The translations under genes and the position numbers were made by a program. Under the pieces are notes generated by a model. The model was not told the DNA's origin and did not search any database. It worked only from the letters and a program-made list of their open reading frames with translations. DNA of 64,000 nucleotides from Auriscalpium vulgare (Eukaryota > Basidiomycota > Agaricomycetes > Russulales > Auriscalpiaceae): NCBI GenBank assembly GCA_019915015.1, contig JAHBBC010000001.1, forward strand, positions 682,001 to 746,000. The letters are read 5' to 3'. Positions 29,797-54,576 of the stretch are shown here, piece after piece; the first letter of the stretch is position 1, and each line of letters opens with the position of its first letter.

Positions 29797-30264
29797 TCAA
29801 GTCGTTGCTTCCTCGTGTACGTGATCGGTGAACAACCCTTCATCGCGCGCTGGGAGAGTGGTATTAGACTCACTCGTGTGGCTGGATCATCGGTACTCAC
29901 CCTTATTTTGAGCACCCTCGTGGACGTGGCCGGTAAATAGTATACCGTCAGTTTGCCGCGCTGTCAAATGACAACGATGTATGAGGCGATGTTCACGTCG
30001 TGTCGGTTCCGGTGGACACCATGAGAACGGCTTACCTTCGAGGCGTCGTGCCACTCCTTGACGAGCTGTTGCACGCAAAACGGTTGAGGGAAGTTTCGGA
30101 GATCCGAACATAGAAGACTGACCCTGGAGAGCGGAGGCTGGAGAACAGGTGAGCACGGGGTCGTATGACGCTATGAGAGACAACTGACCGTCGCTATCGA
30201 TGGGTGCTCCGGAGACCGCCAGTACGAGCACTGAAAGGGCAGAGAGGAGGATAGAGGCACGCAT
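29797..30264 (-). CDS. Secreted repeat peptide precursor 1 (candidate RiPP precursor), 77 aa
   Basis: Five exons: 30264..30189 (76 nt), 30137..30123 (15 nt), 30065..30036, 29960..29901, 29849..29797; all join in phase 1. Exon 1 encodes a signal peptide (ILLSALSVLVLAVSGAPI) with likely cleavage near SG/AP. The microexon encodes SALQ. Exons 4 and 5 each begin Ala-Arg and encode related units with the cores GILFTGHVHEGA and GLFTDHVHEEA. The family has two more members in this window with the same exon 1 and 2 lengths. Multi-core secreted precursors next to UstYa-like oxidases are known for ustiloxin and asperipin; calling this a RiPP precursor is inference. Dibasic ARR precedes the repeats, but unit borders are single Arg (NKAR). 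Confidence 0.72.
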
Positions 30265-30341
30265 GGCAGGAGAGCTAATAGCTGGCCAGAGGATGCAGGG
30301 GAGGATCAAGCTCGAGGAGACGAGGCTACTGTGGCCCGATG

Positions 30342-30349
30342 CTTAAATA
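30342..30349 (-). promoter_or_regulatory. TATA-like box of precursor gene 1
   Basis: TATTTAAG on the minus strand about 80 bp before the ATG, at the position equivalent to the perfect TATAAAAG boxes of the two paralogues. Confidence 0.6.
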
Positions 30350-30582
30350 GCCGATGTTAGTCCACTCTGCCCATTGTCACCCTAACATGCACATGCCGCG
30401 TGCTATACATTGATTCCCAAGATATGTGCGAAGATCACGACCGACCGTCCTTTCCAGTTCACTGGAAACTCTTCTGATTGTCCATCAGATCCATGGAGTC
30501 ATCCCGCGGCCGGTGCGGGCAGACAAAACAAAATGCACCAGATGATGTGATTCGCTGAAGCAACTCGGTATTTTTTGTGGGA

Positions 30583-30831
30583 TCACAAGCTGTCGTATGG
30601 ATTGGGGCGAGGAAGATTGTATGTGTCCGTGTAGTCCAGGTGGTTCCGCACGACTGCTACCACGCTCGAGACCGTCCGCGCAGACAGCCCGAGAAATATC
30701 ACATTCGCCGCTAGAAGCACGAGGATCGCGGCGATGAATACGCCGGGGAGCAACGGATGATCGCGCTCGGGGCGGTTATTAGGCTGTTTCTTGACGTTTT
30801 CATCCTGGCTGAGAGGCACGTAGTCAGACAT
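30583..30831 (-). CDS. Single-pass membrane mini-protein 1, 82 aa
   Basis: Uninterrupted frame starting MSDYVPLSQDE, a polar Arg-rich linker, one hydrophobic helix (VFIAAILVLLAANVIFLGL) and the end YTDTYNLPRPNPYDSL. It resembles the N-terminal anchor region of UstYa-like proteins but has no HxxHC catalytic motif. It recurs twice downstream (41581-41829, 54909-55160), each time just upstream of a precursor-peptide gene on the same strand. The near-identical C-terminal motif argues for selection on the protein. Function unknown; a partner or anchor of the modifying enzymes is conceivable. Confidence 0.7.
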   Translation of the reverse strand: MSDYVPLSQDENVKKQPNNRPERDHPLLPGVFIAAILVLLAANVIFLGLSARTVSSVVAVVRNHLDYTDTYNLPRPNPYDSL

Positions 30832-31859
30832 GTTGTACCTGAGGAGATCCTGAGCTTAGTCGGTGATCGAAAGAGAACTGGATATCGCCCACCTCCTACA
30901 GCGCAGTGAATACGATGCAGACCAGAAGAGCGCGCCGCCACGAAGGTAATAAGTATGCAATCCACATGTCAACCCACGATCGCGATCGGAGGTAGGTTTC
31001 ACCGACTTCGGATAAGAACACGAGCTGCAAGTCGAGGCTGCAAGCAGCAATGAGGTGTGCCGCCGAGATCAAATGGAACGCAGATCGGAGAGCAAGCCAA
31101 TTGGAGTTCCAGCATTCCCATCAGGAGCCTCTCCGCGCAATTCTTCGGCTCGAGTGTGTTTGCGATACCGCCTAGATACCGCACCAGAAGGCCTTGAATG
31201 CGGTGACGTCGACCTCGAGGCGTTGTTTGGGGGACAATCATCCGAGCAGACTGGCTACGTGCAGTGCTCGTGTCTAGACAACGCGGCGCCGGCGGGAGTC
31301 CGACCTTCATAGAAGAGGGCGCCATGTGATGCCTGCCTTGATTTCTTTTGTCAAAGAAGAGAAGGCATTATTGCAGTGATGATTGTATGAGGATGCAGAG
31401 ATTATTCGATGTCGCCAGCATGGAGGAACAAAGTGAGACCAAACAAGCGTGTGACATCACAACTCGGCTAAGTCGATTTTCGCACAGCGGTGACCGTGGC
31501 ACGCGGCCTCCGTCTTGTCCTTGTCGTCCATCAAATAGATCAAACCTAACTGTCCACCATCTGGGATTTTGGACCTCTTACTACTGGCCACGACAAGGGA
31601 ACGCAGTGGGAACGCGAGCACCCAGTGACCGGATCAGTGCGAAAGGCCAAACATCCTCCATCAATCGCGCAAAAGATCTCGGCCATTTGTACGGATGTCT
31701 CGAAAGCTCTAGCAGTGCTCTAGCCAGCCCGCGATCGATTGATTATTAGTTGCCGAGCCCCTCGGGGACTGAAAATCTAAATTCGGGGCCTGGCTGGTCT
31801 TATCTACCGGCGGTGGAGAGTTTGACTTTGACTACAGTACTGCCGCTGCGTCGCGGTCA

Positions 31860-32559
31860 ATGCAGCCATTCTATGCTTGGTCTGTCCACGGGGAGAGGCC
31901 AGGCTGGCTCCATAGCTCGCTCGTCCACCTCTCTAGCCCACTCGCCGTCTATGTCTGTCTTCTCGCAGCAGTCGTCACAACGTTTCTGAATCTCGCCGTC
32001 ACATTACACAACGTACAGCTCTTGAACGAGCTGCTGCCTCCCGCTCCAAAAGAGTACAGTGCGTCTGCACGCCCTCCCTTTGTATCTCTATCACTCACCT
32101 TCGCGCTTAGGTTATGCCGGGAGTGACCATCCTGCACAGCTCCCACTCGACCTTCCCGCTGTCGGTCTCGTACTCGAATACGGTGACCCGCACTTTTCAT
32201 TGTGGGACGATGCCGAGTGGGGAACACTTTTCCCCGCTGAAGGTTTTACCGACCTCGGGCCTGCGCAGCAGCCGTACCTGCTGTCCATGATCCACCAGAT
32301 GCACTGCCTCGACATCATCCGAGTCGGCTTCCTCACGAACCGGACCGGCGCCGCGCACCACGTCGAGCACTGCCTGCGCTACCTGCGGCAGATCGTCCTG
32401 TGCAAGGCGGACACGACGCTCGAGGAGACGGTGATGAAGGAGATCGACGGGCGGAATGAGACGGGGGGGAGCGGCGTGGGGATGGTGCATCGCTGCCGAG
32501 ACTGGACCAAGGTCAGGCAGTATCTGCTCGACAATCCCAGTCATGTGTCGCGGGCGTGA
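31860..32559 (+). CDS. UstYa-like (DUF3328) oxidase 1
   Basis: Two exons, 31860..32058 and 32111..32559, 215 aa. One transmembrane helix (YVCLLAAVVTTFLNLAV) is followed by a lumenal domain with both family motifs: HQMHCLD and, 25 residues on, HVEHCLRYLRQ, the HxxHC pairs required for UstYa activity. UstYa/Yb proteins carry out oxidative cyclisation of ribosomal peptides in ascomycetes (ustiloxin, asperipin) and also act in other pathways. Here the gene lies next to a repeat-peptide precursor, a mini-membrane protein and a P450. All key residues are present. Unlike copies 2 and 3 it lies on the plus strand. Confidence 0.9.
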
Positions 32560-32928
32560 TGCGGTGCGCAACACAACACAGCGGTGACCGGTGATGGACG
32601 ACGCGATGTAAGTACTGTATGTATCTAGGCATGTACACTAGAATTCTGGAGTGCCGCGACCACTGTGATCAGAGCAAAAGCTACTACTGATTTCGAACTC
32701 GAGGTTTTCTGGCGGTGGTAACTCGGTGCGACGGATATCATTTGAGAGCCGACATTGAATGGCCTATGTCAGGATGATCATTGGCAGGCACGGCGGCGAC
32801 CCAGTCCATATACAAAAGAATAAGTTCAGGATGCAGCAAGGCGTAAGGCGTCAAAGTGGTGTACAATACAACAACTGTCTCCGCGTTAAATACGACTGTC
32901 TTCCCCACATCGCGCAGACCTACCCAAA

Positions 32929-34189
32929 CTAAACCGACGCACGGACCGCGAACTCGCTGCCATGCATACTGCTGCCCTCGTCGCTCTTCACACCCTGCGT
33001 GCGGGAGAAGCTATCGCTCCGCATCGCCTTCAAGTCGATGTCGGCCGCAGGATTGGTGCTGCCGTCCGTGAAAGCAGTTGTCGAGTACCCGACCCGCAGC
33101 TGCGATGGTGGCTTCGAGTTCCAGGAGATGTTCGGGTCGCTGTAGCGGCCGGGTGTGTTCATCGTCGAGAGGCCCATCCCCACGCGAATCATGATGAGGG
33201 TAGGCGCGATGCCCTGATAGCAGGAGATAAAACCACACGTCAGATGACATACAAAAGTGAGATGGAGAAAATACTGCGCACATAAATTTGCACCGCAATT
33301 ACGGCGAGGATGGCTTGCGAGGGAACCTCTTTCGTAAAGGTGGCGACTAAGATGGCCTGGACGAGGAGGTATAGCGCGCCGGACTCGATGATGATCTCCA
33401 TGGCCTTGTGGCCCATTGCGGTCGTCGAGGAGGTCACACCCCACTCGCTCTGTGTGCGCGGCGTGAGGTACCATATGCGCCCGACGATCAGCGCCGTGAC
33501 GATTACATTCGTGCAGAGCGGGAGAGTGTAACCGGCGATGCCGAGCGGTACCAGGTTCGAGGGGGCAACAGGAGCGGTCGGGCTGATCGCAAGCACCTCG
33601 TGAACGACGGCACAGATGCAGGCTGGTGGACGTAGGTCAGCGGCGGACATATGGGAGAAGAAAGTCGCGTACCAAGGCCACCTAGTGCGGTAAGGAAAGG
33701 AATGATGACAATGTAGATATTCTTCCCGTAGATGAGGTAGCAGCGGTAGAGGAGGATCGTGTCGCCGACGAGGTCGGCGATGGAGATGAGGAGGTCGGCT
33801 CCGAAGAGGGGGGATGTCTCATTGGCGTAGCCCTTTACAACGCCATTCCTGCCCTAGATATACGAAGAAAAATTAGCCAAGCCTTCAGAAACATGGAATG
33901 TAGCGACTCACGAGTGTGACGTAGAAATGATTGAATTCGATGGCGAAGTGGGTGGTACAGATGAGAAAAAGAAAGACACTGGCGACCATGATTGGGATGT
34001 TTGCTTCGCGCTTACGCCGCCCCCAGAAGATCAACGTCAACGCCACGATGAACAGGATACAGTACGCCCCTGGGGAAGCAATTCAATCAATGCCGCAATT
34101 CAGGAGACAAGCCTGACTAAACACTGACCGTACAATAGCGTCTCGCACGCGAAGCCAATCAAGGCTGCCATGTCATTGGAGAGCGGCAT
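32929..34189 (-). CDS. Seven-helix membrane protein 1, uncharacterised
   Basis: Five exons (34189..34129, 34069..33912, 33853..33673, 33622..33282, 33213..32929) give 341 aa. Seven hydrophobic segments are visible: MAALIGFACETLL, YCILFIVALTLIF, VASVFLFLICTTHF, ADLLISIADLVG, IYIVIIPFLTALG, LPLCTNVIVTALIVG and ALYLLVQAILVATF. A Ser-rich cytosolic tail follows. Conserved pieces include LLYRCYLIYGKN and GHKAMEIIIESGALY. The topology resembles fungal GPCR-like families common in Agaricomycetes; no ligand or role is known to me. A paralogue lies at 38043-39284. In this cluster it could be a sensor or a transport/tolerance factor, which is speculation. Confidence 0.82.
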
Positions 34190-34949
34190 GGCTATCGCGA
34201 GGATGCGGAGAAGGCACGGAGGGGGTATGATCGTGCACGCAGCAACGTCGAGCTTTGTATGCGGATCACAGCGGGATCCTCATAACTGCTCTCTCGATCC
34301 AGCCTGCCGTCATGGGAAACTGCGAAATGATAAATAGTTGATGCAAGAAGATTGTGAGCTCTCATACAGAATGGGCTTGCAGCGATGTCTCGGTTGAACC
34401 CATCGTCCATGGGTCCGTCCTGAGGAAGTGGGGTAAGCGACATGATACGGTTAGATATCTCACTTCACCACGCGATCAGTCTCGCCAATCTGTGCAGGGA
34501 TCTGTCGGCAGGGACGGAGACTGCGACACCGAGGAAACCGATCCTACCCCGAATCTGACCAACAGCCATCCCATCCCAAAGTTCAAGAGACTATGCAGAG
34601 CTTTGCAGAGACCTTCTTGACTTCTACCGGGGCAGTTTCAGTGGCGGACACTTCATACTCTCGGTACCAAGCCTACCTGCCCACGATACCCGAACCCCAG
34701 CGCCGGGCCTGCATCCACAAGACTGCAGGGTTCCGAGCTGCTTCCAGGTTCTTTCATCTTTGATCGGTGGCATTTCGGCCATCCCCTTGTCCCGTTCCGG
34801 AAATGCTTGTGGGCACTGCCGAATTACCGCGGCCCGTCCATATCGCTGTCTGTGGGTAAGGTCAGCAACGGAGACTACCTGGGACCTACCTCTGGTTGCC
34901 TCGAGGCCACTGGTCCGACGCCAGACACCAACCTTCTTGACTGCCACCC

Positions 34950-37421
34950 ATGTCATTCTCACACGTCTTCGGCGCTTTGGTCGTTGCGTTCGTTCTCTGG
35001 AAAGTTGTGAAAAGGTCAACAGCGCCGAAGTCCCTGCTGGCCGACGTCGCAGGACCGGAGAAAGAGCATTGGTTGAAAGGTACGGCTGCGCCTTTGATCA
35101 CGTGCACGCGCGTTGACGACCTTTGACGACCCTCAATCGCAACCTCGAAGGCAACTTTCATAGGATCTTCCAGGATGGACGAGACTACAATCTCAGCATG
35201 GCGGACCGCTATGGAGGGGTGGTGAAGGTGTACGGTCTTCTTGGGGTGAGCTAGTCTTCAATTCGCTTTGTGTTTTGTCTTACGCGGGACACAGCAAGAG
35301 CAACTCTACGTGTCGGATCCTCGCGCCCTCCACCACATCGTGGTGAAGGATCAGCACATATATGAGGAGACAGATATGTTTATCATGTATGCTTATGGTT
35401 GGGAATCATCATGTTCTTCGTCGGCTCATATTCAACTAGGGGAAACAAGATCATCTTCGGCGAAGGCTTGATCTCCACGCTTGGTATGCACATATGAGCT
35501 CTCTTCATCGAGCCTTGCTAATTGATACTATGAAGGCGAGCAGCACAAGAAGCAGCGCAAGATGCTCAACCCTGTTTTCTCGCTCGCAAATATGCGTGTT
35601 CTGCTCCCCATCATCCAACCCATTGCGGACAAGTTGCGAGACCTCTTGACATCCCAAGTCCAGGAGAGCGGGCGTAAGACCGATCCCATTACATTGTAAA
35701 ATGGCTCATATGTCACCCTAGGGAGCAAAGAGATCGACGTACTGCCATGGATGACACGCGGGACGCTGGAGTACATCTCGCAGGCCGGCTTAGGTTATTC
35801 ATTCAACGCTCTAGAGGCTTCCAAGTCTCATCCATACACAGAGGCCCTCAAGTCGCTAGCGTGCGTACGATTTCTTGGTCTCAACACGAGCAAGTCCTGA
35901 CCTGCTCCCGCCACTTCAGTCCGACTGCCTTGGGCATCATCATGCTAAGACCGCTCGTGCCTGTCGCCATACGCAATTTCTCCTCACACTGGCGGAACAA
36001 GCTTATCGACTGGCTCCCTATCAAAGGCCTCAAGAAGATGCGTGAGATTGTCCAGGTCATGGACCGATCCAGCCGGCAGATATTCCAAGAGAAGAAAGAC
36101 GCGCTGGATAAGAACGCAACGGACGCCGGTGAAACGCCTGTTGAAGGGGACGTCGGAGCACGTCTGCTCGGGAAGGATATCATGAGCATTCTCCGTCCGT
36201 TTTTGACTCTCTCTAATGCTTCACTGATGTACGACTGACTTCTTGACATAATTTCTAGTGAACGCGAACACAGCGTCCGATGACGCGGACAGACTTACGG
36301 AGGCTGAGATTCTCGGACAAATGAAGTGCGCCGCCACGAAATTGCACTGCTTTGTTTGATAGCTGACGGATTATGTCTCAGCACCATTATTTTTGCCGGC
36401 TTCGAGACCACCACAACCGCGATATGCCGTATCCTGTATATTATCGCTTCGAATCCCGAAGTACAGGCACGTCTGCGTAGCGAACTCAAGAAGGCACGGC
36501 TCGCGTACAAGGCCGCGCAGGGGCTCCCAGAGGAGCAGCGGTGGGAGGATGTGCAACTGCCGTACGACACACTGATGGCGCTTCCCTACTTGGACGCAGT
36601 TGTGCGAGAAACTCTGCGCGTGCATCCACCCACTTCTCTCCTCAGCCGCGTGTACGCATCGCTCTTCTCCGCGCGCTCTAGCCAGCTAACTGTTCCTGCA
36701 GCGCGCGGCAGTCAACCACGCTCCCTCTGCAGTACCCCGTGCGCGCTGCGTCGGGTGCACAGGTATCCTCCGTTGCAGTACCCGAGGGAACGACTGTGAT
36801 CATCTCGATCCTCGCGGCGAACCACAACAAGGATGTATGGGGCGAGGATGCGTCCGTGTGGAAGCCGGAGCGCTGGCTCACGGCGTCGGGCGATCGCATA
36901 CGATTTTCGCACGACCTCGACGGCGCGCTCGGAGAGAATCAGGAGTATGAGGGCGAGGGCACGCCGGGGAGCAAGACGGGCGTGAAGTACCCTGGCGTTT
37001 ATGCGTCCATGTGAGTTGGGCTGGAATACCCATCGTGCCCGTGATGCCGACTGATTTCCTCACGCATCAGGATGACCTTCCTCGGCGGTGGGCGGGCATG
37101 CATGTGCGTTCTTCTGATTCCATAGCAGAAGCGTTTCAAGAACTAACATCGTATACAGTGGCTTCAAATTTGCCGAAATGGAGATAAGTAAGCGGTCGTC
37201 GTGCAGCCCCTTTGTCTTTACCTTCACGACTGATCCTTCGCGCAGAACAAGTCGTCACCGCACTAATATCGACACTCCACTTCTCACTGCCTTCCGAAGA
37301 TAAGGAAATTTATTGGAAGATTAACGGGCTCCAGGTGCCCGTGGTACGCCCCCCTTCTGGAGACGGTGTAACTCCTGCGGTGCCGCTCGACGTGCGACTT
37401 GTCCGCGAGAGCGACTTCTGA
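34950..37421 (+). CDS. Cytochrome P450 monooxygenase 1
   Basis: Thirteen exons (34950..35079, 35151..35245, 35295..35386, 35440..35483, 35536..35673, 35722..35860, 35920..36194, 36259..36325, 36382..36651, 36702..37010, 37071..37103, 37159..37187, 37246..37421) close at 598 aa. N-terminal anchor (FGALVVAFVLW); I-helix FAGFETTTT; K-helix ETLRVHPP; KPERWL; heme loop FLGGGRACIGFKF with Cys530. All canonical P450 residues are present, so an ER-bound monooxygenase is expected. The subfamily was not assigned. The nearest relative in the window is 44707-47189 with matching exon structure. Proximity to UstYa-like genes and precursor peptides suggests a tailoring role; that link is inferred. Confidence 0.93.
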
Positions 37422-40748: not shown

Positions 40749-41249
40749 TCAGTCGGATGCCTCCACATGGACGTTGTCGGTGTACAAACAATTGGGGCAC
40801 TGGCGTGCTGCGAGACGAAATTTAGCCTCCTTCGTGCGTCAAAATCGTGCTGGTTTACCTTTTATCTTAGGCTCGTCGAACTCTTCCTCGTGCAGTTTGT
40901 GATCGGACAATATTTGGAGAGCTGTCAATTTGACGGTATGAGTCGCGGAACACGTTGATATCTCAGTAGATGATCACCTTGGAGGTGCGCAGCGCCGGGA
41001 AATGCCTCCTCACGCAGTTTCACAACTCCTCCTTGACGAGCTGTTATAGGACACGGATGAGCATTGCCTCGAAGATCCAGATGCGGAAGACTGACCCTGG
41101 AGAGCAGAGGCTGAAGAAGGTACACATCTTTGAGTACAGATTTGCATAACGCAGCATGAAAGAAATAACTGACTATCACCACCAATGGGGGTGCCGGCGA
41201 CGCCCAAGACGAGCGCCGTAAGGACAGAGAGGATGATCGAGGAATGCAT
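40749..41249 (-). CDS. Secreted repeat peptide precursor 2 (candidate RiPP precursor), 91 aa
   Basis: Exons 41249..41174 (76 nt), 41110..41096 (15 nt), 41040..40978, 40921..40859 and 40807..40749, all phase 1. The signal peptide (IILSVLTALVLGVAG/TPI) and the SALQ microexon match the other two precursors. Exon 4 encodes ALQILSDHKLHEEEFDEPK and exon 5 ARQCPNCLYTDNVHVEASD with a stop. Exon 5 has an extra CxxC and keeps the core Leu-Tyr-Thr-x-x-Val-His. If the second intron is not removed the frame ends early at 41010, so alternative splicing would give a 58-aa secreted peptide without cores. Assignment to a RiPP pathway is inferred from neighbours. Confidence 0.7.
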
Positions 41250-41340
41250 TGTCAAAGGGAAAGCAACTGGCGAGAGGTATACAGATGATAGCGCGGCGAA
41301 GTCAAATCGGAGAGCACTGAATGAAATTTGCGCCCAACAC

Positions 41341-41580: not shown

Positions 41581-41829
41581 TCACAAGCTGTCGTATGGAT
41601 TGGGGCGAGGAAGATTATGTGTATCGGTGTAGTCCAGATGGTTCATCACAACTGCTACCACTCCCGACACCGCCTGCGCGGACAGCACAAGGGATATGAC
41701 GTTCGCCGCTAGAAGCAAAAGGATGGCCGCGACGAACACGCCGTGAAGCAACGACGTATGCTCGCGCTCCTGACGGTTAACCTGTTCGGCGTGTTCGTTC
41801 TGGCTGATGGGTACGTAGTAGTCCGGCAT
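41581..41829 (-). CDS. Single-pass membrane mini-protein 2, 82 aa
   Basis: Starts MPDYYVPISQNEHAE, one helix (VFVAAILLLLAANVISLVL), ends YTDTHNLPRPNPYDSL. Same length and end as copy 1. The frame is open further upstream, but the start was placed at the ATG shared by all three copies. Immediately upstream lies precursor-independent sequence with a hydrophobic piece (STAAYIIFVAALFC) that is partly conserved in copy 3; it is in another frame and may be 5' leader. Confidence 0.7.
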   Translation of the reverse strand: MPDYYVPISQNEHAEQVNRQEREHTSLLHGVFVAAILLLLAANVISLVLSAQAVSGVVAVVMNHLDYTDTHNLPRPNPYDSL

Positions 41830-42927: not shown

Positions 42928-43636
42928 TCATGCCCGCGACACATGACTGGGATTATCGAGCAGATACTGTCTGACCTTGGTCCAGTCTCGGCAGCGATGC
43001 ACCACCCCCACGCCGCTCCCGCCCGTCTCGTTCTTCCCGTTGACCTCCTGCACCACCGTCTCCTCGAGCGTCGTGTCCGCCTTGCACAGCACGATCTGCC
43101 GCATGTAGCGCAGGCAGTGCTCGACGTGGTGCGCGGCGCCGGTGCGATTCCTCAGAAATCCGACGCGGATGACGTCGAGGCAGTGCATCTGGTGGATCAT
43201 GGACAGCAGATACGGCTGCTGCCCGGGCCCGAGGTCGGTGAAGCCCTCAGCGGGGAAAAGTGTTCCCCACTCGGCGTCATCCCACAGGGAAAAGTGCGGG
43301 TCGCCGGACTCGAGGACGAGGCCGACAGCGGGTAGGTTGAGTGGTAGCTGAGCGGGATGGTCGCTCCCGGCATAGGCTAGGGAAGACGAAAAAAAAGATG
43401 ACTGATCCATTCACGTTGAAAGGGCATGCGGACGTACTGTACTCTTTTGAAGCGGGAGGCAGCAGCCCGTTCAAGAGCTCTACATTGTGGGATGTGGCGG
43501 CGATATTGAGAAAGGTTGTGAAGATCGCGGCAAGGAGACACGCGTAGACGGCGAGTGGACTAGAGAGTTTGACAAGAGAGTTTCTGAGCCAACCAGTCCG
43601 CCGCCCATGAGCAGACCAAGTAAAGTACGACTGCAT
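42928..43636 (-). CDS. UstYa-like (DUF3328) oxidase 2
   Basis: Two exons, 43636..43438 (199 nt, as in copies 1 and 3) and 43376..42928 (449 nt), 215 aa. Anchor helix YACLLAAIFTTFLNIAA; motifs HQMHCLD and HVEHCLRYMRQ intact; conserved end CRDWTKVRQYLLDNPSHVS. Transcribed away from P450 gene 2, with a shared upstream region containing repeat R. The predicted role, oxidative modification of a secretory-pathway peptide, follows the family; the substrate is inferred. Confidence 0.9.
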
Positions 43637-44199
43637 TGGCGACGATGCAGCAACAACCAACCTCCGTAGCCTTTAGAGGGGACGTGAGGCTCCGAGTTCG
43701 TGTTCTCATAGTTACCGAAGGTTTGGGCAGCAATGATACATCGTGGGTTGGACATTCTGTGCGCGAATGATCATCTGGGATAGTGGGAATCAGATGACGG
43801 TGAATGGATGTTCCAGAGCCATGGCAGGAAAGAAAAAGACGGACCCTCTCACATCCGATTCGGCATCAGTCCAGTGTTGGGTGAGTGTCTGAAGAGGTCC
43901 CGAGAAGACCATTGAAGAACTGCCGGTGATGGACGGCTTCCCGCGGACTCAGTAGATCTCAACACAGTGCAGGCGCATCATCACGAATGGAAGTGCTCGT
44001 AGCACAATTGCGCGCGCTAGCACTGCCTTTTGAGTCATGTTCCGCACGTGCCCCCTTGGGCACACGATGTTGGAAAGCGGGTTGGGACCCAAGATGTTGA
44101 CCACCCACCATACATAAGGCAACGACCGTTGTCGAATTGATGCCACCAGAAGTGAAAAGCTTCCGAGCTCGTGCTCCCGGCGCTGCGGCTGCAGCGATG

Positions 44200-44480: not shown

Positions 44481-44706
44481 ATTCGCGACTCTCTGATTCT
44501 CTCCTCTTCCCTCGGATCTGAAAAGATCCGTGAAGCAGGCGCTGGCTTTTAGCGAGGTGCATTGAGCACTGACGGTGTGCGATGCGAACGATCAGGCCTT
44601 CAGGATGGGCTATTCGAACTCAGTTAGCTCGTGCGTCCCCAAGTACTTATACGACAAGCGCCATATCACCTCCGAGTCAGTCAGTACTGACCTTCTTCTA
44701 CCACCC

Positions 44707-47189
44707 ATGCCATCCCTGCAAGTCGTCGGCGCGTTGATCATTGCATTGGTCCTCTGGAGGGTTGTGAAGAAGTCGACAGCGCCGAAGTCTCCGCTGGCCG
44801 ACGTCGCAGGACCGGAGAAAGAGCACTGGTTGAAAGGTACGGTTGTGTCCTTAGTCACGTGCACTCGAGTCAGCATTGACGAAGCCGCCTTGGCAAACTT
44901 GAAGGCAACTTTCATAGGCTCTTCCAGGATGGGCGGGACTACAATCTCAGTATGGCTGATCGCTATGGGGGAGTGGTGAAGGTGTACGGTCTTCTTGGGG
45001 TGAGCCTGTCCTTGGTGTCGCCTTCTCTTTGTCTTACACCGCGCCACAGCTAGAGCAACTCTACGTGTCGGATCCTCGCGCCCTCCACCACATCGTGGTG
45101 AAGGAGCAGCACGTCTATGAAGAGACAGACATGTTCATAATGTATGTTTATGTTTCGGACCATCATGTTCTTCGTCGGCTCATCGTCAACTAGGGGAAAC
45201 AAAATCATATTTGGCGAAGGCTTAATCTCCACGCTTGGTATGCATATGCGCCTCTCTTCGTCTAACCTTGCCTCATTTTGTCCTGTCATTATAGGGGAGC
45301 AGCACAAGAAGCAACGCAAAATGCTCAACCCTGTCTTCTCGCTCGCAAATATGCGTATTCTGCTCCCCATCATTCAACCCATCGCGGACAAGTTGCGAGA
45401 CCTCTTGACATCGCAAGTCCAGGAGAGCGGTGGTAAGACCCATCCAATCTCATTGAAGAGAATGGCTCATATTTTATCCTAGAGAGCAAAGAAATAGACG
45501 TACATCCATGGATGACGCGCGGGACGCTCGAGTACATCTCGCAGGCCGGCTTAGGTTATTCGTTTAACGCTCTAGAGGCGACCGAGACTCATCTCTACAC
45601 GGAGGCCCTTAAGTCGCTAGCGTGCGTACGAGATCTCGGTCTCAAACGCGAGCAATTCCTGACCTGTTCCCGCTACTTCAGCCCGACTACATTGGGCATC
45701 ATCATGCTGCGACCGCTCGTACCTGTCGTCATACGCAACTTCTCCTTGCGCTGGCGGAACAAGCTCGTAGACTGGCTCCCTATCAAAGGCCTCAAGAAGT
45801 TGCGTGAAATTGTCCAGGTCATGGACCGATCCAGCCGGCGGATATTCCAAGAAAAGAAATACGCGTTGGGACAGAATGCAATGGACACCACTAGTGTCAC
45901 GCTCGTTGAAGGTGACGTTGGGGCACGTCTTCTTGGGAAGGATATCATGAGCATTCTCCGTCCGTTTTCGACTCATGCTTCGCTGATCTACGACTGACTT
46001 CTTCTCTCTAATTTCCAGTGAACGCGAACACGGCGTCCGATGATGCGGAGAGACTTACAGAAGCTGAGATTCTCGGGCAGATGAAGTGCGCTGCGCCACA
46101 ATCCTGCACTGCTCGATTTGATAGCTAACAGATTGTTTCTCAGCACCATTCTCTTTGCCGGTTTCGAGACCACCACAACAGCAATATGCCGCATTATGTA
46201 TATCCTCGCTTCGAATCCCGAAGTACAGGCACGGCTACGTAGCGAACTCAGGAAGGCACGGCTCGCGTACAAGGCTGCGCAGGGGCTCCCAGAGGAGCAG
46301 CGATGGGAGGACGTGCACCTGCCGTACGACGCCCTGATGGCGCTTCCCTACTTGGACGCAGTTGTGCGAGAAACTCTGCGCGTACATCCGCCAACTTCTC
46401 TCCTCAGCCGCGTGTACGCGTCGCTCTTCTCTCCGCACGCACCAGCTAGCTAACTGTTCCCGCAGAGCGCGCGAGTCAACCATGCTCCCTTTGCAGTACC
46501 CCGTCCGCGCAGCGTCGGGTGCGCAGGTGTCCTCCGTTGCTGTACCCGAGGGAACGACTGTGATCATCTCGATCCTCGCGGCGAACCACAACAAGGATGT
46601 ATGGGGCGAGGATGCGTCCGTGTGGAAGCCGGAGCGCTGGCTTACGGCGTCGGGCGAGCGCATACGATTTTCGCACGAGCTCGACGGTGCGCTCGGAGAG
46701 AATCAGGAGTTTGAGGGCGAGGGCACGCCGGGGAGCAAGACGGGCGTGAAGTACCCTGGCGTTTATGCGTCCATGTGAGTTGGCCTGGAATACCCATCGT
46801 GCCCGTGGAGCGAACTGATTTACTCGCGCATCAGGATGACCTTCCTCGGCGGTGGGCGGGCATGCATGTGCGTCGTTCTGATTCCATGAGTAGTAGAAGC
46901 GTTTCAAGAACTGACACCTTATACAGTGGCTTCAAATTCGCCGAAATGGAGATAAGTAAGCGGTCGTCGTGCAACCCTTTTGTCTTCGCCTTCACGACTG
47001 ACCCTTTGCGCAGAACAAGTCGTCACCGCACTCATATCGACACTCCACTTCTCATTGCCTTCCGACGATAAGGAGATTTATTGGAAGATTAACGGGCTTC
47101 AGGTGCCCGTGGTACGCCCCCCTTCTGGAGACGGTGTAACTCCTGCGGTGCCGCTCGACGTGCGACTTGTTCGCGAGAGCGACTTCTGA
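44707..47189 (+). CDS. Cytochrome P450 monooxygenase 2
   Basis: Paralogue of P450 1 with thirteen exons (44707..44836, 44905..44999, 45050..45141, 45194..45237, 45295..45432, 45483..45621, 45682..45959, 46019..46085, 46144..46413, 46466..46774, 46835..46867, 46927..46955, 47014..47189), 599 aa. Only exon 7 differs in length (3 nt longer). FAGFETTTT, ETLRVHPP, KPERWL and FLGGGRACIG are intact. Divergently paired with UstYa-like gene 2. High similarity down to the 3' end suggests recent duplication or gene conversion. Confidence 0.93.
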
Positions 47190-47271
47190 GCTTTCATCTG
47201 TACTCATTCATCTTTAGCCGCTTGAGCGTGGTCCATTGTGCCGTATTCAGTCCTTTCGTACGGTGCTTATC

Positions 47272-47662: not shown

Positions 47663-48151
47663 GATGAATTATTGCACTGTGCCGGACTGCATATCCTTGA
47701 TCCAGCACGTCCCGTCACACTTTCAGCATATTATTTGCGAGCCATGAGCCGCCGGGAGCAGTTCCTGATCGTCCGATTCACTTGTCGCCGGGAGATCCGT
47801 TACCACTAGGTTCAGAAATTTGCTCATTCCGTCCACGAATATCGTTTCAAACCTTTCATCATTGCGACCTGCACGTCCGACCCGTTCGCTCACAATATTG
47901 TCGTAATTTCAGGAATAACATCGCTCACTCAAGTCATGGAGTTAACGGACCCCACTAACACTCAGTGTTACTAACAAAGTTGCCGGCCGCCGTCGCTAGG
48001 CTGGGACCACGTGCACTGGAATTTTGGTTCGCGGTGCCTTCCTTGACTACACATCCTTGCGCTCACAAGCGATGCAGCGCGGACCGGAATACGAGCGTTT
48101 TAAAAAGCGTCCCATAGTCGCTGCGTCTACCTAGCGAACATCCCGCCCAAA

Positions 48152-48955
48152 ATGTCGCCGAACACCTCGGAGCCACTCCGGAAGACTCGCCTTTTTGCCT
48201 TGGCGTTCTGTCGGCTGGTCACCAACGTCACGGGCGGTTTCAGCGTACACGATTTGAGGAGGTGCGTACCTCAATGCTTCCGTACGGTATTACGGACCGT
48301 CGCGTCGCTGTTCTGACATGACTTAGGGAGAGCGCGACCAAGTCAGCCATGAAGCGCGATGCACATCCTGGTGTTACTCTGCAAATCGATACGACGAGTA
48401 AGCCGTGTGCCAGCTTTGACCCTCGCCCAAGGCCCACCACAACATGCCATCCTGGCCATCTCGATCCTCAGCAACATCGTCGCAGGCAACTGTGCCCAAT
48501 TGATTATCCGCCCCAAGCCCTTCTACCGCATGTTCCGTCGCTGGGTGCGCGCTGACGGCCCCCCGCTGGCGACGCGCACCCTGCGCGCGCAAGCCGTCAT
48601 CTTCGCCGTGTGCACGCAGGCGCTGCTCCCTCCACAGGCCGCGTACACCATCACCTTCGCTTCCAAGAGCCCCACCGCGAGGGCCTTCCAGGACGGCGTG
48701 CAGCTCCCGGACGTGTCGGAGCAGCCGTATCGGAAGCTTGGTTTCTGTGAGTCCTCCGTTGAATGCGTCTGCATTTGCGGCTCCTGATTGACGGGTCCGA
48801 TCGGATGGTATGCAGTACTCTTGCAGCTCATCGTGCCGTGGGTCGGCGTGCTGTCGGCCGTCGTCGCCACCGTCGTGCTCTTCGTGGCCTCGCACCGGCG
48901 TGTGCGAGAGGGGCCGGGCGAAGGCTCAGTGGAACTCACCGCTTTGGTACAGTAG
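48152..48955 (+). CDS. Small multi-helix membrane protein, uncharacterised
   Basis: The best supported part is the frame through ILAISILSNIVAGNCAQLII, PFYRMFRRWVRADG, AQAVIFAVCTQALLPPQAA and, after an intron, LLLQLIVPWVGVLSAVVATV, ending SVELTALVQ at 48955. The 5' part is uncertain: an ATG at 48152 (MSPNTSEPLRKTRL) joins through an intron from 48265, then needs either a very short (about 34-nt) intron near 48399 or an alternative start at 48359. About four membrane helices. Family not recognised. It lies between the two P450 groups. Confidence 0.5.
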
Positions 48956-49445
48956 TCTCTGTATACGATTACTGCAATTGATTGATACCCCTGCATAGGA
49001 CTACAATACCCGACTCAAAACAAATCTCTTCGACATGCCAGCATCCACAACCCCAACGTGTACGCACATTTCAACGACGTCGAGCCCCCTCTTTTGGCGC
49101 TGTCCTAAGGCCGTCGTTCGAGGTTGACTGTGTTCTTCCCGCTGGTTGGGATACCACTGCCAGTGGCGCTGGTCGTCTCGCTCTCGAAACCAATTGACCG
49201 CCTTGTGGCCTCCTTTGGATGTCATCGATACATATCTGGATTCCTACCCGAGCTGCCCGAGAGAACGCCGTCCGCGTGGGGAGAAGCGTCGAGTATGCAG
49301 ATCGTCTGCCCGCGTTAGGCGGCGTGGGGGACGTCAATCGCCGCTCTCCCGGCATCGTGGACAGGTGCGCACTGTGCCAGCCGTTGCAAGCGCTTTGAGC
49401 GCCGCCAATCCCCCAGCGCGATATCGCCCTTTTCCTTCGCCCCTC

Positions 49446-51827
49446 ATGCAGCCGGCCATCCTCCTTGCCGCCTCCCTGACCCTCGCTTACGTCGTCCATG
49501 TACTCCTCAATTTCCGCCGCGCGCTGCAGGAAGTTGGGCACTTCCCTGGCACCCGCTCGCTCCTGTCTCCCGTCTCCCTCGTTGGCAAGCTCATGCCGTA
49601 CGTCAAGGGGGTCAACGCAATCCCCTTCAGAGCGATGGTGTATAGGTTCCAAGGTGCGCTAGTATGCGCATGCGGGTGTTTATGCCTTCTTACTTTCTTG
49701 CGTTCAGAGTTTCACAACTTTGGGTGGACCACATTTACCCATGTAACCGTCTGTCTTCGGACTTCCTCAGCTTTGTGTACTTAACTGGTGCTCGTGTCTT
49801 TTAGGTTAGCGCCTGGCCACGACCACATATCTTCATCTACATCGCCGACCCTGTCACAGCCAAGGTGCGCGCCCCTCAGAGTGTATGCACTCAACTCTCA
49901 ACTTATCCTACGGCAGGAAGTGACCAGCCAACGCGCGCGCTTCCCCAAACCCGCACATTTCTATACGATCGTTACATGCCTCGGACCAAACATTATCTCC
50001 GCTGTCGGCGCACAATGGAAAAGGTACCGCAAGATCGCCACACCAGCCTTTTCGGAAGTGCGCAACGAAGTTACCGATCCCGATGGTTCAATGCTGACGC
50101 GGCTGAACAGAGAAACAACAAGCTCGTGTGGGATGAAACTGTTCTCGTCGTGCGCGGGCTGTTTACTACGCACTGGTGCGACGGCTTAGAAATTACGACC
50201 GACGACGTTACTGAGGTCACCATTGCGGTATGTCCACCACCTTCCCTCTCGTCCAGACCTCTCACATCAGCATGTAGATGGCAGTCCAAGTGATCAGCGC
50301 CGCCGCCATCGGCCGGCGCATCTCCTGGACCGACACTGAACACCCGCCCGCTGGGCATGCGCTCACGTTCAAGGACGCGCTGATCACGGCGTCGAGCAAC
50401 GTCCTCCCTCGGATTGTCCTCCCGCGCTGGACAATGTGGCTTACGGCGCACCTTCGAAAGGTCCGCTGTGCGTTTGACGAGCTGGACGTCAGTCTTACCT
50501 CCTACGGCTCATCCCTCATATCTTCGCGCGTGACTGATTTGATGCCCCAGTCATACCTCGATGAAATGATTCAAGAACGGAAGAGCGCGCTGGCGGTAGG
50601 CGGCGCAGGGGATGAGAAGGGCGATTTGTTCAACAACCTCGTCGCCGCGTCTGTGGCTGAGGACGGTGACTCCATCTTGTCCGACAGAGAGCTGACCGGT
50701 GCGTTAATTGCATGTCTTGCCACGCGCCGTCTCTTTTCTTACAACCTACGGGTATGTGCGCACAGGCAACATGTTCGCGTTCCTGCTCGCTGGGCACGAG
50801 GTGCGTGCTGCGTCTCGTGTAGTTCGTTTGGACTGATGGAGCATACATCTTTCAGTCCTCTGCGCACACGTTGGCATTCTGTTTTGCCCAACTGGCTTTG
50901 CACCCGGACGTCCAGGAGCGCTTATATGCGGAAGTCAGCACTGTTGTTCCCAGTGGTAACCCAGTGAGTAATATGCGTGACGTCTTTGCCCTGAAGTACT
51001 CAACTACTGACAATCGTGCCTGGTGCCATCTAGACATATCACCAAATGTCGTCGCTGCCATATTGCTTGGCGTAAATTCCTTCTCTGACCCCCTTGTGAA
51101 TCCCATCTGACACATCCAAGGCAGTGTTTTGTATGAGGCGCTCAGGCTGAGGTATGTCTCTTCACCACCACCTTCTACCGTCCTCTCATTGTCGCATGAA
51201 GTCCCGCAGTACGTCTGACCACACCCACATCTTGAACATTTGTTCATGTCCGCTTCTGCGCGCTTAGGCCGTTACTTTCCCCAAACAAAGCGCAGAAGAC
51301 ACCACCCTTCCCGTCACGCGTACCGACGGCACCGATGCGCGCGACAGGATTGTGGTGCCCAAAGGCGCAATCGTGAGCATCCACGTCGCGGGTCTACACA
51401 CCAACCGTACGTATGTTCGCCTCACCGCTCTCGGCCTCGCCTGATCTGGATCGCTCACCAGCGATGTACTGGGACGACCCGCTGGCGTTCAAGCCGGAGC
51501 GTTTCCTCGGCGACTGGCCCCGCGACGCGTTCGTGCCGTTCAGCCAGGGCGCGCGCGCGTGCATCGGCCGCAAGTTCTTCGAGACCGAGGGCACGGCAGT
51601 GCTCGCGATGCTCGTCGCGCAGTACACCATCGCCATCAAGCCGGAGAGCAAATTTGCGCACGAGACAGCGGAGGCGCGCGCGGCGCGGGTCATGCGGGCG
51701 GTGCCGGGGGTGACGACGACGTAAGTCTTCATGCGAGTCGGATACTAGGGCAGATGGATCGATGGATGCTGACGGGGCGGGCTCTAGGCCGGTACGGGTG
51801 CCCCTCGTGTTTCGACGGAGGATATAG
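49446..51827 (+). CDS. Cytochrome P450 3, different family, one doubtful junction
   Basis: Exons that join in phase are 49446..49653, 49708..49742, 49805..49864, 49917..50057, 50111..50227, 50278..50487, 50551..50698, 50766..50800, 50856..51015 and 51121..51151. A second in-phase set is 51268..51406, 51462..51720 and 51788..51827. Features: N-terminal anchor; IFIYIADPVTAKEVTSQRARF; WKRYRKIATPAFSE; I-helix LLAGHESSAHT; K-helix YEALRL; FKPERFLGDWP; heme loop PFSQGARACIGRKF. The sequence after the K-helix, where Phe-Pro-Pro is expected, cannot be joined in frame between 51151 and 51268. Either a microexon was missed or the gene carries a lesion. This P450 resembles a separate polypore family, not P450 1 and 2. 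Confidence 0.72.
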
Positions 51828-52039
51828 GGACCGGCGCGCAATAGGATGGTTGTGCGAGGCACGTCAACACGCCGTAGCCTAGGCCTGACACGTTTCAACC
51901 AGGGATAAATTGGGAGGATGATATAAAAGCGACAACACAGAGCGCAAGACAGCAATGCGAGAGAGACGGGCGCGATCTCTCTTAGTATGCAAGCTGCAAG
52001 CGATGCAAGGGAGCGCGAGGGGCGAGAATTGTCGACCGA

Positions 52040-52200
52040 GGATTTTGGATCGACGCTTGCTAGCCTCGCCTCACCGATGTGGGGGACGCGCTCATGGATG
52101 ATGAGCGAGGGTGTCGACACCACAAAATGCTGACACCTACTTCTTCCCGTGCTCAGTGACTGTGAGTCCGATGTCGGAGCGCCTTCAGCTCACGATCCGC
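52040..52200. repeat. Repeat R, partial copy
   Basis: Contains GCTAGCCTCGCCTCACCGATG, CATGGATGAT and CACAAAATGCTGACACCTAC-like blocks corresponding to the 3' part of repeat R at 44310-44460. Confidence 0.6.
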
Positions 52201-52267
52201 AATAATGATTTCTCCCTGACGAGCTACTTTGAATAGCCCAGCACATTGAGAGGGCATGCGGACGTAC

Positions 52268-52466
52268 TGTACTCTTTTGTAGCGGGAGGCAGCAGCTTGT
52301 TCAAGAGCTGTACATTGTAGAGTGTGACGGCGAGGTTGAAAAAGGTTGCGTAGATTGCTGCGAGGAGACATGCGTAGACGGCGAGTGGATTGGAAAGTTT
52401 ACTTCGAGAGTTTCTGAGCCAACCAGGGCGCTGCCCGTGAGCAGACGAAGTAGAGTATGATCGCAT
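52268..52466 (-). pseudogene. UstYa-like gene fragment, exon 1 only
   Basis: Exactly 199 nt from ATG to a GTACGT donor, the same as exon 1 of the three intact copies, encoding the anchor (YACLLAAIYATFFNLAV). Exon 2 with the HxxHC motifs is absent downstream, so no oxidase can be made. Confidence 0.88.
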
Positions 52467-52659
52467 TGACGACGCAGTAACATCCAGCCTCCATAGCCTT
52501 CATGTAAGACACAATTGAGGCTCGGGATTCGCGTTCTCAGAGTTACGGAAGGTTTGGGCTTGGGCAAGAAGCATTAAACGGACGGCATCGTGGGTTTCAG
52601 GTTTCAAAGAGACGTATAGATATCTGTAATTTGTGCGCGATCGATGATCTGGGACAGTG

Positions 52660-52935
52660 GGAGCGAAGACTGCATTGCGGAAGGCCCTTCAACCCCCGAA
52701 CTATCAGAGCAAAACTAGAGTATTCAAGAGATCGATAACGTACAGTTGAAAGGCCGCGCACGCTTGCCAGCCTCGTCTATCCCCGCACCGATGTGCCGCA
52801 CTGGAAGCGCATTGGGGATGCGCTCATGGATGATTCGCGAGGGCGTCGACACTACAAAAGGCTGCCACTTGCTTCGTCCCGTGCTTCGTGACTGTTCCGA
52901 TGTCACGGAGAGCCTTCAGTTCGATGCAATTCAGC
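52660..52935. repeat. Repeat R copy between UstYa fragment and P450 fragment
   Basis: Same order of blocks as 44200-44480 and the same position between a minus-strand UstYa start and a plus-strand P450 start. Confidence 0.7.
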
Positions 52936-53227
52936 ATGGGGCAAACGCACACGCACCAGTGGCCTTCTGATCCCCTCCTCTTCTTCTAACTCCAACTGCA
53001 ATGATCCGTGACGCGTGCGGTCGTGATGCGGTTGTTTGGAGAGCTGCGTTGAGGACTGACGGTGACCGATGTAAACGATCAGGCGTTCGGGGTACGAGGT
53101 ATTCATCTGTTGAAGTCACTGGTCAGCTACGGAGACTAGCAGTAAGCTCGGGAGTCCCCAACCACTTAAACTTACTGATAGGACAGCGCCATATCACCTC
53201 GGCACTGGGCAAGTTCTTGTACCATCC

Positions 53228-53358
53228 ATGCCGTCGCTGCAAGTCATCGGCGCATTGATCGTTGCTTTCATCCTCTGGAGAGTTGTGAAAAGGTCGACGT
53301 CCGTGCTGGCCGATGTCACAGGACCGGAGAAAGACTCAGAGAGCATTGGTTGAGAAGT
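53228..53358 (+). pseudogene. P450 gene fragment, exon 1 only
   Basis: Encodes MPSLQVIGALIVAFILWRVV and VLADVTGPEK, matching exon 1 of P450 2, with a small deletion (APKS lost), an insertion before the WLK end and no GT donor. Nothing homologous to later exons follows. With the UstYa fragment it forms a truncated copy of the 43.4-44.9 kb interval. Confidence 0.88.
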
Positions 53359-53876
53359 TTCACGTGCACGCGCATTGCCCATAGTCTAAGGCAGACGACG
53401 GAGTTGTCGGGGACGTGTGAGCTCACTGTACTGTCGGACGGGGGCGCTGATCAGGGTAGAATTAGATGGGACGCTCGCTGCGTCTACGGCGCGTTGGATA
53501 CTAACGCACCATTGTCAGCAGCAATATCCTTCCCTCCTCCGCGAGTCCATGAGTGGGCGGTAAGTATGGTGGGCGTCAGCTCGCGGTGCGCTGTGGAAAT
53601 GGCCAACGGCGGTGCGAGCACTAAGTCGAAGGGTTCATCGTCGACTTGGGCCTGAGGGAAAGCACTCACCGGGCACCGGCCGCATAGTAGCCGCCCGGCG
53701 CCCGGCCCGCGATGGCCGGCCCCTTCGGATGGCAACTCAAGCTTCAGCGTCGTCGCGCAGCTTCCTTCCTTAGGATGAATCGTGCAAGGAAAATAACATA
53801 GAGGAAATGGCTGTAGTGACCGCAAAGTTGAATTTATTCGACGGTCTTACAACGGTACATAAACACGAAAGAACAG

Positions 53877-53956
53877 TCAGAAGTTCGACAGAGGCCAGCC
53901 ACGAATTGTCACGAATGTCTGTAAACGGGTATACCACCGAGTACCACATTGTCGTG
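53877..53956 (-). pseudogene. Possible extra core exon of precursor 3, degenerate
   Basis: After a TTGGCAG acceptor the phase-1 frame reads ARQCGTRWYTRLQTF, sharing ARQC and a following Tyr-Thr with exon 5 of precursor 2. It lies downstream of the current stop of precursor 3, so it is probably an abandoned repeat exon. Confidence 0.35.
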
Positions 53957-54086
53957 CTGCCAAATAATAATGTTACGTTAGTCTGAGTGGGCTTCACGCA
54001 TTGAGGTGAATTTATTACCATCGAGGACCAATTCAAACATTTATCATTTGCCTTCGTGTTTCAAAATCGTAATTCCAGGTTCCATT

Positions 54087-54576
54087 TTACGTTGACTTCG
54101 GGTGCCGAAAGTACGGCCTTGAGGCCTGAGGCTCGTCGGACGCTACCTCGTGGATGTAGCCTATGAAAAAACTGCGTGCTGCGAGACGCGTATATCAGTC
54201 GCCTTCGTGTTTTAAAATTGTGCTTATCTACCTTCTACCTTCGGCTCGTCGGACGCTACCTCGTGGAGGTGGGATAGGAACACATCGCGTGCTGCGGGAC
54301 GCGTAAGTATCGCTTGTGTGACGCAAATCATCCTTACATACCCTCAATTTGAGCTTCAGGTGATGCATCCTCCCGAGCTGTTACACGACACAATTGAGTA
54401 CTGCCTCAAAGATCCAGATGCGGAAGACTGACCCTGGAGAGTAGATGCTAAAGGAGAGGTGAATATAATTTGCATCACGCAGTATGAAGAGATAGCTGAC
54501 TATCGCCACCGATTGGGGTACCGGCGACGCGCAGGACGAGCGCCGTAAGGAGAGAGAGGATGAACGAGGGATGCAT
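54087..54576 (-). CDS. Secreted repeat peptide precursor 3 (candidate RiPP precursor), 92 aa
   Basis: Exons 54576..54501 (76 nt), 54447..54433 (15 nt), 54377..54342, 54291..54232 and 54178..54087, all phase 1. Signal peptide FILSLLTALVLRVAG/TPI; microexon STLQ; two core exons, ARDVFLSHLHEVASDEPK and ARSFFIGYIHEVASDEPQ, followed by a short Arg/Pro-containing end. The two core exons and their preceding introns are visible direct repeats of about 113 bp, so the unit multiplied by exon duplication. Core residues Phe, Tyr and His are candidates for oxidative cross-linking by UstYa-type enzymes; this is inference. Confidence 0.74.
54130..54305. repeat. Tandem exon-intron duplication inside precursor gene 3
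   Basis: GGCTCGTCGGACGCTACCTC at about 54130 recurs at about 54243, each followed by a core exon start (GCGTGCTGCG) and a similar intron. The period is about 113 bp. Confidence 0.85.

Follow-up and report, generated by a model that had tools for sequence, protein, structure and literature searches.

A 64,000-nucleotide stretch of the genome of the mushroom-forming basidiomycete Auriscalpium vulgare (contig JAHBBC010000001.1, positions 682,001 to 746,000, called the window here) carries a unit of three genes repeated three times. Each unit combines a gene for a UstYa-type (DUF3328) oxidase, a gene for a small membrane protein, and a gene for a short precursor protein in which each candidate core peptide occupies its own exon. 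The precursors probably give rise to secreted ribosomal peptides modified by the neighboring UstYa-type oxidase, although we hold this with no more than reasonable confidence. They would make up a dikaritin-like system of ribosomally synthesized and posttranslationally modified peptides (RiPPs) in a basidiomycete. On the DNA, the gene family and the module are judged to be real, and no earlier description of them was found in the open-licence literature.

Precursor Genes and Their Exons

The original prediction, made from the letters of the window, placed three precursor genes at 29797–30264, 40749–41249, and 54087–54576. These coordinates are exact, and the genes lie on the minus strand and encode 77, 91, and 92 amino acids. 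Three is the number within the window, but the family has at least five members and reaches beyond it. Paralogs 4 and 5 are found on the same contig (C1:785704–786175 and C1:789488–789883), 40–44 kb past the window's right end. They were missed by the prediction, as were the small membrane-protein gene and the cytochrome P450 copies described below.

30264–29797, minus strand: precursor gene 1, 77 amino acids (exons joined from window DNA)
30189–30264, minus strand: gene 1 exon 1, signal-peptide-like leader (joins agree with the annotated protein P0078, below)
30123–30137, minus strand: gene 1 15-nt microexon, SALQ (spliced model)
30036–30065, minus strand: gene 1 exon 3, ARQGVARRLE (spliced model)
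29901–29960, minus strand: gene 1 exon 4, core LFTGHVHE (spliced model and shuffle test)
29797–29849, minus strand: gene 1 exon 5, core LFTDHVHE (spliced model and shuffle test)
40749–41249, minus strand: precursor gene 2, 91 amino acids, cores ILSDHKLHE and LYTDNVHV (spliced model and shuffle test); exons 41249–41174, 41110–41096, 41040–40978, 40921–40859, and 40807–40749
54087–54576, minus strand: precursor gene 3, 92 amino acids, cores FLSHLHE and FFIGYIHE (spliced model and shuffle test); exons 54576–54501, 54447–54433, 54377–54342, 54291–54232, and 54178–54087

The five genes share one architecture. The leader exon (76 nt) and the microexon (15 nt) have identical lengths in all of them and are followed by three phase-1 exons in genes 1–4 and two in gene 5. 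All 19 introns are GT–AG and 50–75 nt long. Internal exon lengths are without exception multiples of three (15, 30, 36, 51, 60, and 63), and intron lengths modulo three are 0, 1, or 2, a mixture that noncoding introns should show. Exon joins were set by eye so that the frames close, and their support is the recurrence of identical joins in five genes. The in-frame joins of the original prediction hold for the three genes and extend to the two paralogs, with P0078 in agreement for gene 1. Splice donors are weak in genes 3 and 4 (GTAGAT, GTTAAT). In gene 5, one exon short, the start of intron 2 resembles intron 2 of the other genes and its end resembles intron 3 of gene 2, as judged by eye. A TATAAAAG box lies ~100 nt upstream of the ATG in genes 2–5, and gene 1 has TATTTAAG.

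A hydrophobic N-terminal leader, with signal-peptide character judged by eye, is kept in all five precursors. In the leader exons the nonsynonymous rate (dN) is below the synonymous rate (dS) in 10 of 10 gene pairs (0.082 versus 0.278 for genes 2 and 3); the closest pair, genes 3 and 4, rests on three differences. A search of the 51.6-Mb genome (51,632,677 bases in 96 contigs) with the 26-residue leader exon at E up to 10 returns five matches, which are the five precursor loci, and no others. A 19-nt pattern spanning leader and microexon has 22 genome matches, of which three exact ones and two with two mismatches are the same five loci. The other 17 carry three mismatches and were taken as chance without individual reading; a reversed control pattern gave six.

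At E up to 10, a profile of the five proteins gave one match among 382 candidates in a database of 5.77 billion proteins. This is P0078 (FA95DRAFT_1563383), an independently annotated protein of 98 amino acids from Auriscalpium vulgare (E 4.4e-24). Judged by sequence, P0078 is the ortholog of gene 1. It reads the same as gene 1 across all four exon joins, is identical to it through residue 46, and keeps both cores. The differences are a 5-residue insert before core 1 and a 17-residue block, ARDGGLLALRSREGVLN, before the ARQG that leads to core 2 (net 16 residues). No trace of this block was found at 29–31 kb of the window; as seen from the protein only, the Ala-Arg block may be an added exon. 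Used as a single-sequence query at E up to 1, the gene 3 protein drew 4 candidates and no match.

Core Exons and Candidate Processing Sites

From exon 3 onward, 13 of the 14 exons in the five genes start with Ala-Arg, the exception being gene 2 exon 4 (Ala-Leu). The predicted layout, in which phase-1 exons nearly all beginning with Ala-Arg come after the leader exon and the 15-nt microexon, recurs in all five genes. In 12 of the 14 exon junctions the sequence reads [LIV]xAR, with the [LIV] residue encoded by the preceding exon. Shuffles of the five proteins have a mean of 0.43 such sites and a maximum of 4 (5000 shuffles), but the 12 sites are not 12 independent events because the gene copies are related. 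Kex2 tolerates a single Arg with an aliphatic residue at P4. The kexin-type P domain has one above-cut-off match in the genome; a stop interrupts the frame of this match, perhaps where an intron lies. The accessible text on KEX2-processed repeat proteins (KEPs) of Coprinopsis, an agaricomycete, expressed in Pichia pastoris describes products apparently derived from cleavage after single arginines (PMC9769878).

Core likeness was assessed with the first two residues dropped, using 2000 shuffles for pairs between genes and 5000 for pairs within a gene. Between genes, 25 of 40 core exon pairs were reached by fewer than 1% of shuffles and 6 of 40 by between 1% and 5%. The two cores within a gene are alike in genes 1, 3, and 4 (0 of 5000 shuffles each). 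The claim that the last two exons of each of the three predicted genes carry related cores is upheld within genes 1 and 3 and for those 25 between-gene pairs, and within gene 2 the likeness is not significant. One histidine is invariant across all 10 aligned core exons, which were picked by the analyst. Phe or Tyr is found in 8 of 10 cores, and ILSDHKLHE and NDVHE have neither.

The UstYa Genes and the Repeated Module

The adjoining UstYa-like genes of the original prediction are confirmed by PF11807 matches at 32266–32526, 42961–43230, and 56612–56872, ~2.1–2.4 kb from precursors 1–3. Each spliced gene encodes 215 amino acids with both HxxHC motifs (HQMHC and HVEHC).

31860–32559, plus strand: UstYa1, 215 amino acids, HQMHC and HVEHC; exons 31860–32058 and 32111–32559 (PF11807; 213/215 as in P0003)
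42928–43636, minus strand: UstYa2, 215 amino acids; exons 43636–43438 and 43376–42928 (PF11807)
56579–57284, minus strand: UstYa3, 215 amino acids; exons 57284–57086 and 57027–56579 (PF11807)

The motif residues are invariant or at least 90% conserved when UstYa1 is aligned with 31 of 75 database relatives. Relatives of UstYa2 outside Auriscalpium (42–68% identity) presumably span Polyporales, Agaricales, Boletales, Gloeophyllales, and Russulales, going by the names listed, and many of the proteins are unnamed. UstYa1–3 each have one N-terminal hydrophobic span by eye, matched by a helix at 27–58 in a poor AlphaFold model of UstYa1 (pLDDT 64 and pTM 0.42, values that do not permit a fold search). 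UstYa1 has no PDB sequence relative at E up to 1. With dN/dS of 0.19–0.34 in three pairs, UstYa1–3 are, on their sequences, under purifying selection. The accessible text on the DUF3328 enzyme CctR describes HxxHC(x)nHxxHC motifs that form a binuclear copper site (PMC12435403). The reaction of UstYa1–3 cannot be named, as DUF3328 proteins have been linked to hydroxylation and halogenation besides cyclization.

The listings of P0078 and of the A. vulgare UstYa proteins P0003 and P0005 all give a contig of 58,890 bases, taken here as one contig, and the pairing of precursor and UstYa appears to persist on it. UstYa1 and P0003 are identical at 213 of 215 residues, and UstYa3 and its counterpart P0005 (208 amino acids) at 201 of 215. 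Because the second pair differs more than the first, the two A. vulgare strains may be rather distant.

In the first module, UstYa is on the opposite strand to the precursor. A fourth module, outside the window, has a frameshifted UstYa, and gene 5 has no UstYa of its own. Every precursor lies 2.1–6.2 kb from a UstYa exon, the neighbor of genes 4 and 5 being the frameshifted UstYa4. The genome holds at least 14 PF11807 exon matches, four of them in this cluster. Stretches no farther than 7 kb from one of these 14 add up to 0.3% of the genome and contain all five precursors, which counts as one association rather than five because the module was duplicated as a unit.

The small membrane-protein gene, unnoticed in the original prediction, came from aligning the regions upstream of the precursors. 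It is found upstream of every one of them.

30583–30831, minus strand: small single-membrane-span protein 1, 82 amino acids, single exon
41581–41829, minus strand: small single-membrane-span protein 2, 82 amino acids
54909–55160, minus strand: small single-membrane-span protein 3, 83 amino acids
C1:785129 and C1:788949, plus strand: small single-membrane-span protein copies 4 and 5

The gene is a single exon encoding 80–83 amino acids. A short N-terminal segment leads to one hydrophobic span, and the tail, HLDYTDTYNLPRPNPYDSL, hardly varies between copies. On the same strand, the ATG of this gene precedes that of the precursor by 539–584 nt. A genome search at E up to 1 gave six matches, which fall at the five precursor loci and nowhere else. 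The four intact copies show dN/dS of 0.18–0.32 in six pairs. No Pfam family exceeded the cut-off in the two copies scanned. A sub-threshold resemblance of protein 1 to INV_N (19.2 bits against a cut-off of 27.8) was dismissed as membrane-anchor resemblance.

Proposed Pathway and Competing Readings

In the pathway we propose, the precursor would enter the secretory pathway by virtue of its leader. A kexin-like protease would cut after the Arg of the [LIV]xAR site that opens each exon, so that every exon would give rise to one peptide with its core. The UstYa protein, fixed in the membrane by a single helix and with the active domain facing the lumen, would use a dinuclear copper site formed by HxxHC...HxxHC to oxidize the core, perhaps producing a side-chain cross-link through an aromatic residue, the invariant histidine, or both. 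The small membrane protein beside each precursor may work together with either the enzyme or the precursor, and the P450s encoded nearby may tailor the product.

The internal core exons are symmetrical (phase 1 at both ends), so their gain, loss, or skipping would keep the frame. Exon number does vary: gene 5 has four exons where the other genes have five, and P0078, as a protein, carries the added Ala-Arg block. A bolder version of the proposal would make this a basidiomycete RiPP class of its own. Such a class would combine exon-modular precursors, single-arginine cutting, UstYa with a dedicated small membrane partner, a histidine as the sole constant core residue, and symmetrical exons that serve as swappable or alternatively spliced cassettes. 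We find this version conceivable and put it forward tentatively, on the genes as they read.

Several results weigh against oxidized, multi-core precursors. Two of the 14 junctions depart from [LIV]xAR (NKAR in gene 1, LQAL in gene 2). The five precursors hold a single dibasic pair (RR), which flanks no core, and the sites are monobasic, unlike the KR/RR/KK of dikaritins. Nine of the 40 between-gene core pairs, all involving gene 2 exon 4 or a gene 5 exon, are indistinguishable from shuffles, and the two cores are not alike within gene 2 (27% of shuffles) or gene 5 (18%). Tyr, the cross-linked residue in ustiloxin, phomopsin, and asperipin, is found in 4 of 10 cores and is absent from LFTGHVHE, LFTDHVHE, ILSDHKLHE, FLSHLHE, LFDHRVHM, and NDVHE. 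In the core halves of genes 3 and 4, dN exceeds dS in five of six comparisons of 2–10 changes each. This suggests core diversification in that pair. The original prediction had named purifying selection on the core residues as its own refuting test. For whole cores no such selection is seen in the gene 3/4 core halves, where counts are very small; the invariant histidine is the exception.

The remaining difficulties concern the neighborhood and the wider distribution. A frameshift interrupts UstYa4 (C1:782990–783682), the copy outside the window next to genes 4 and 5, which reads HVENC. The same HVENC is found in P0004 of A. vulgare, a full-length protein, and the state of this copy may differ between strains. 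Next to gene 5, the gene copy for the small membrane protein is broken. Database relatives of the precursors come down to P0078, from Auriscalpium, although absence elsewhere is weak evidence because the searches see only predicted proteins that share exact 5-residue words.

No comparable precursor was recognized in ~9.9 kb around seven other UstYa sites, using imperfect scans. These covered 9901 bases at each site and included 10 of the 14 UstYa exon matches. Negatives from the exon-pair scan are weak because its donor rules are too strict to recover genes 2–5; its listings include an Arg/Ala-rich set at site L041 and a long non-precursor repeat at L047. A scan for Ala-Arg chains recovers genes 1, 3, and 4 and misses 2 and 5. 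Arg/Ala-rich, GC-rich chains at L041, at L045, and antisense to the phosphoenolpyruvate carboxykinase gene (~16.8–17.2 kb) were judged to be chance. Against reading the sites as empty, 14 Ala-Arg exon pairs occur in 138,614 strand bases there, compared with 1 in 90,570 and 1 in 100,000 in two controls, the first of which consisted of 15 near-pattern loci rather than random places. Six of the 14 pairs belong to the Arg-rich L041 set, and the rest are unlike core exons. Two hydrophobic leaders (L042, L043) resemble, by eye, the starts of UstYa genes themselves. The seven sites may harbor divergent precursors.

The strongest competing explanation, which we rate as unlikely, is that the precursors yield linear secreted peptides, i.e., kexin-processed signaling or defense peptides like agaricomycete KEPs, with UstYa acting elsewhere or not at all. 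The cores that lack Tyr fit this view, as does the frameshift of UstYa4 next to precursors 4 and 5 with open frames. In the accessible text on detected KEP peptides of Coprinopsis, Lentinula, and Pleurotus, these are linear and minimally modified (PMC9769878). However, genes 1–3 are each paired with their own UstYa under purifying selection, and the pairing appears to be kept on the A. vulgare contig.

The precursors could also be small secreted proteins that act whole, whether effector-like or structural, with the Ala-Arg starts arising incidentally from duplicated exons and their splice-site context. This would accommodate the free divergence of the cores, and also the exact position of AR at the exon borders, since duplication of a phase-1 acceptor would retain it there. 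We consider it improbable, given that [LIV]xAR is found at 12 of the 14 junctions even though the preceding exon supplies the [LIV], and that the proteins are short, three without cysteine and two with two.

Two further readings seem very improbable. In one, the true UstYa substrate would be the small membrane protein, and the exon-core genes would be passengers. All copies of this protein carry almost the same Tyr-rich tail, HLDYTDTYNLPRPNPYDSL, and it accompanies the precursor at all five loci and UstYa in the modules. Yet it lacks a signal-peptide-plus-repeat layout, its invariant tail resembles a binding or targeting motif, and the copy at C1:789 kb is broken where the precursor frame is open. 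In the other, equally improbable, the cluster would be in decay and without a product in this strain. The UstYa4 frameshift, the broken copy of the small-protein gene, and the fragments of UstYa (52.2 kb) and P450 (53.2 kb) point that way; against it stand three complete open-frame modules with purifying selection on UstYa and the small protein.

Other Genes and Remnants of the Window

Pfam was run on 56 distinct open reading frames of the 129 listed. UstYa, P450, phosphoenolpyruvate carboxykinase, and DUF7330 were the only families found, and shorter exons could escape such a scan. Tyrosinase, methyltransferase, and S41 peptidase were absent among the 56 of 129 frames scanned. NCBIfam on 10 open reading frames gave only P450 matches, below curated cut-offs.

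34950–37421, plus strand: cytochrome P450 copy 1, heme motif FLGGGRAC at 37078 (Pfam; ends, first ATG and last stop, by eye; exon joins unmodeled)
44707–47189, plus strand: cytochrome P450 copy 2, heme motif FLGGGRAC at 46842 (Pfam; exon joins unmodeled)
52224–52507, minus strand: UstYa first-exon-like fragment, 75% identity to 43394–43677
53222–53298, plus strand: P450 5′-end-like fragment, 78% identity to 34944–35020
16009–17339, plus strand: phosphoenolpyruvate carboxykinase gene
60870–62042, plus strand: DUF7330 protein

The UstYa and P450 fragments at 52.2 and 53.2 kb suggest, by their sequence, a further decayed module. A membrane-protein-like gene is duplicated on the minus strand at 32.9–34.2 kb and 38.0–39.3 kb, with repeated stretches at 82–84% DNA identity. 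It has no Pfam match in the scanned open reading frames, and its exon at 38.0–38.7 kb has no PDB relative at E up to 1. Long open frames of 510, 355, 264, and 163 amino acids follow in series at 24614–28394 on the plus strand, with no Pfam match at E up to 0.001. An 18-nt tandem repeat of 9.4 copies at 19789–19960 overlaps several long open frames.

Comparison with Known Systems

The closest known systems are the dikaritins (ustiloxins, phomopsins, asperipin-2a, and victorin), which have, as is predicted here, a secreted multi-core precursor beside DUF3328/UstYa oxidases with HxxHC...HxxHC. Ascomycete precursors generally keep their repeats in one exon. The system described here differs in being from a basidiomycete, in having one core per exon with introns between cores, and in having a candidate single-Arg [LIV]xAR site in place of KR/RR/KK. 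Its cores have diverged, 6 of 10 being without Tyr, and it has an additional small membrane protein. Membership among the dikaritins is not claimed, since the dibasic sites that separate dikaritin cores are missing from the precursors and the product is only predicted from the genes. A P450 is part of the ustiloxin B biosynthesis cluster, as here, according to the accessible text of PMC12048977.

Fungal KEPs resemble the predicted precursors as small proteins with a signal peptide ahead of a set of related short peptides. They are defined by repeats flanked by KEX2 sites and are searched for at dibasic residues, as the accessible text of PMC9769878 has it. The dibasic KEX2 sites that mark both dikaritins and KEPs are not a feature of our precursors: one dibasic pair occurs in all five, and the cores are only partly alike. 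The epichloecyclins (gigA) share with the predicted system a secreted multi-core precursor with imperfect repeats and predicted oxidative cyclization. They come from an ascomycete, are Tyr-based, and are likely processed by Kex2 (PMC9233826, accessible text). MSDIN cycloamanides and borosins, which are not known to have a signal peptide or UstYa, are likewise ribosomal peptide families of mushrooms. Their processing is cytoplasmic, by S9 oligopeptidases (PMC9769878, accessible text).

In the accessible text of a 2025 paper, the basidiomycete classes are given as amatoxins, phallotoxins, and borosins, and dikaritins are assigned to ascomycetes (PMC12048977). The original prediction called this a RiPP class unfamiliar from basidiomycetes. 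The exon-per-core form bears this out in part: no report of such UstYa precursors was found in the accessible open-licence literature, where the small membrane protein, being nameless, was not searched by name. As a general statement it goes too far. A DUF3328 gene lies near 103 of 1680 Basidiomycota KEPs (PMC7329392), and Pleurotus ostreatus has 16 UstYa genes, called probably involved in dikaritin production (PMC8893723), both as given in the accessible text.

The KEP survey suggested, in its accessible text, that the cyclization factor differs between phyla or that cyclization hardly occurs in Basidiomycota (PMC7329392). If the cluster works as proposed, it offers a third answer, namely intron-split monobasic substrates overlooked by gene callers and dibasic-repeat screens. 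Similar precursors would escape searches based on repeats and dibasic sites, which could, if true, explain the many UstYa genes of mushrooms that look like orphans. The combination of UstYa, a small membrane protein, and an exon-core precursor provides a concrete search pattern and a small gene set for co-expression.

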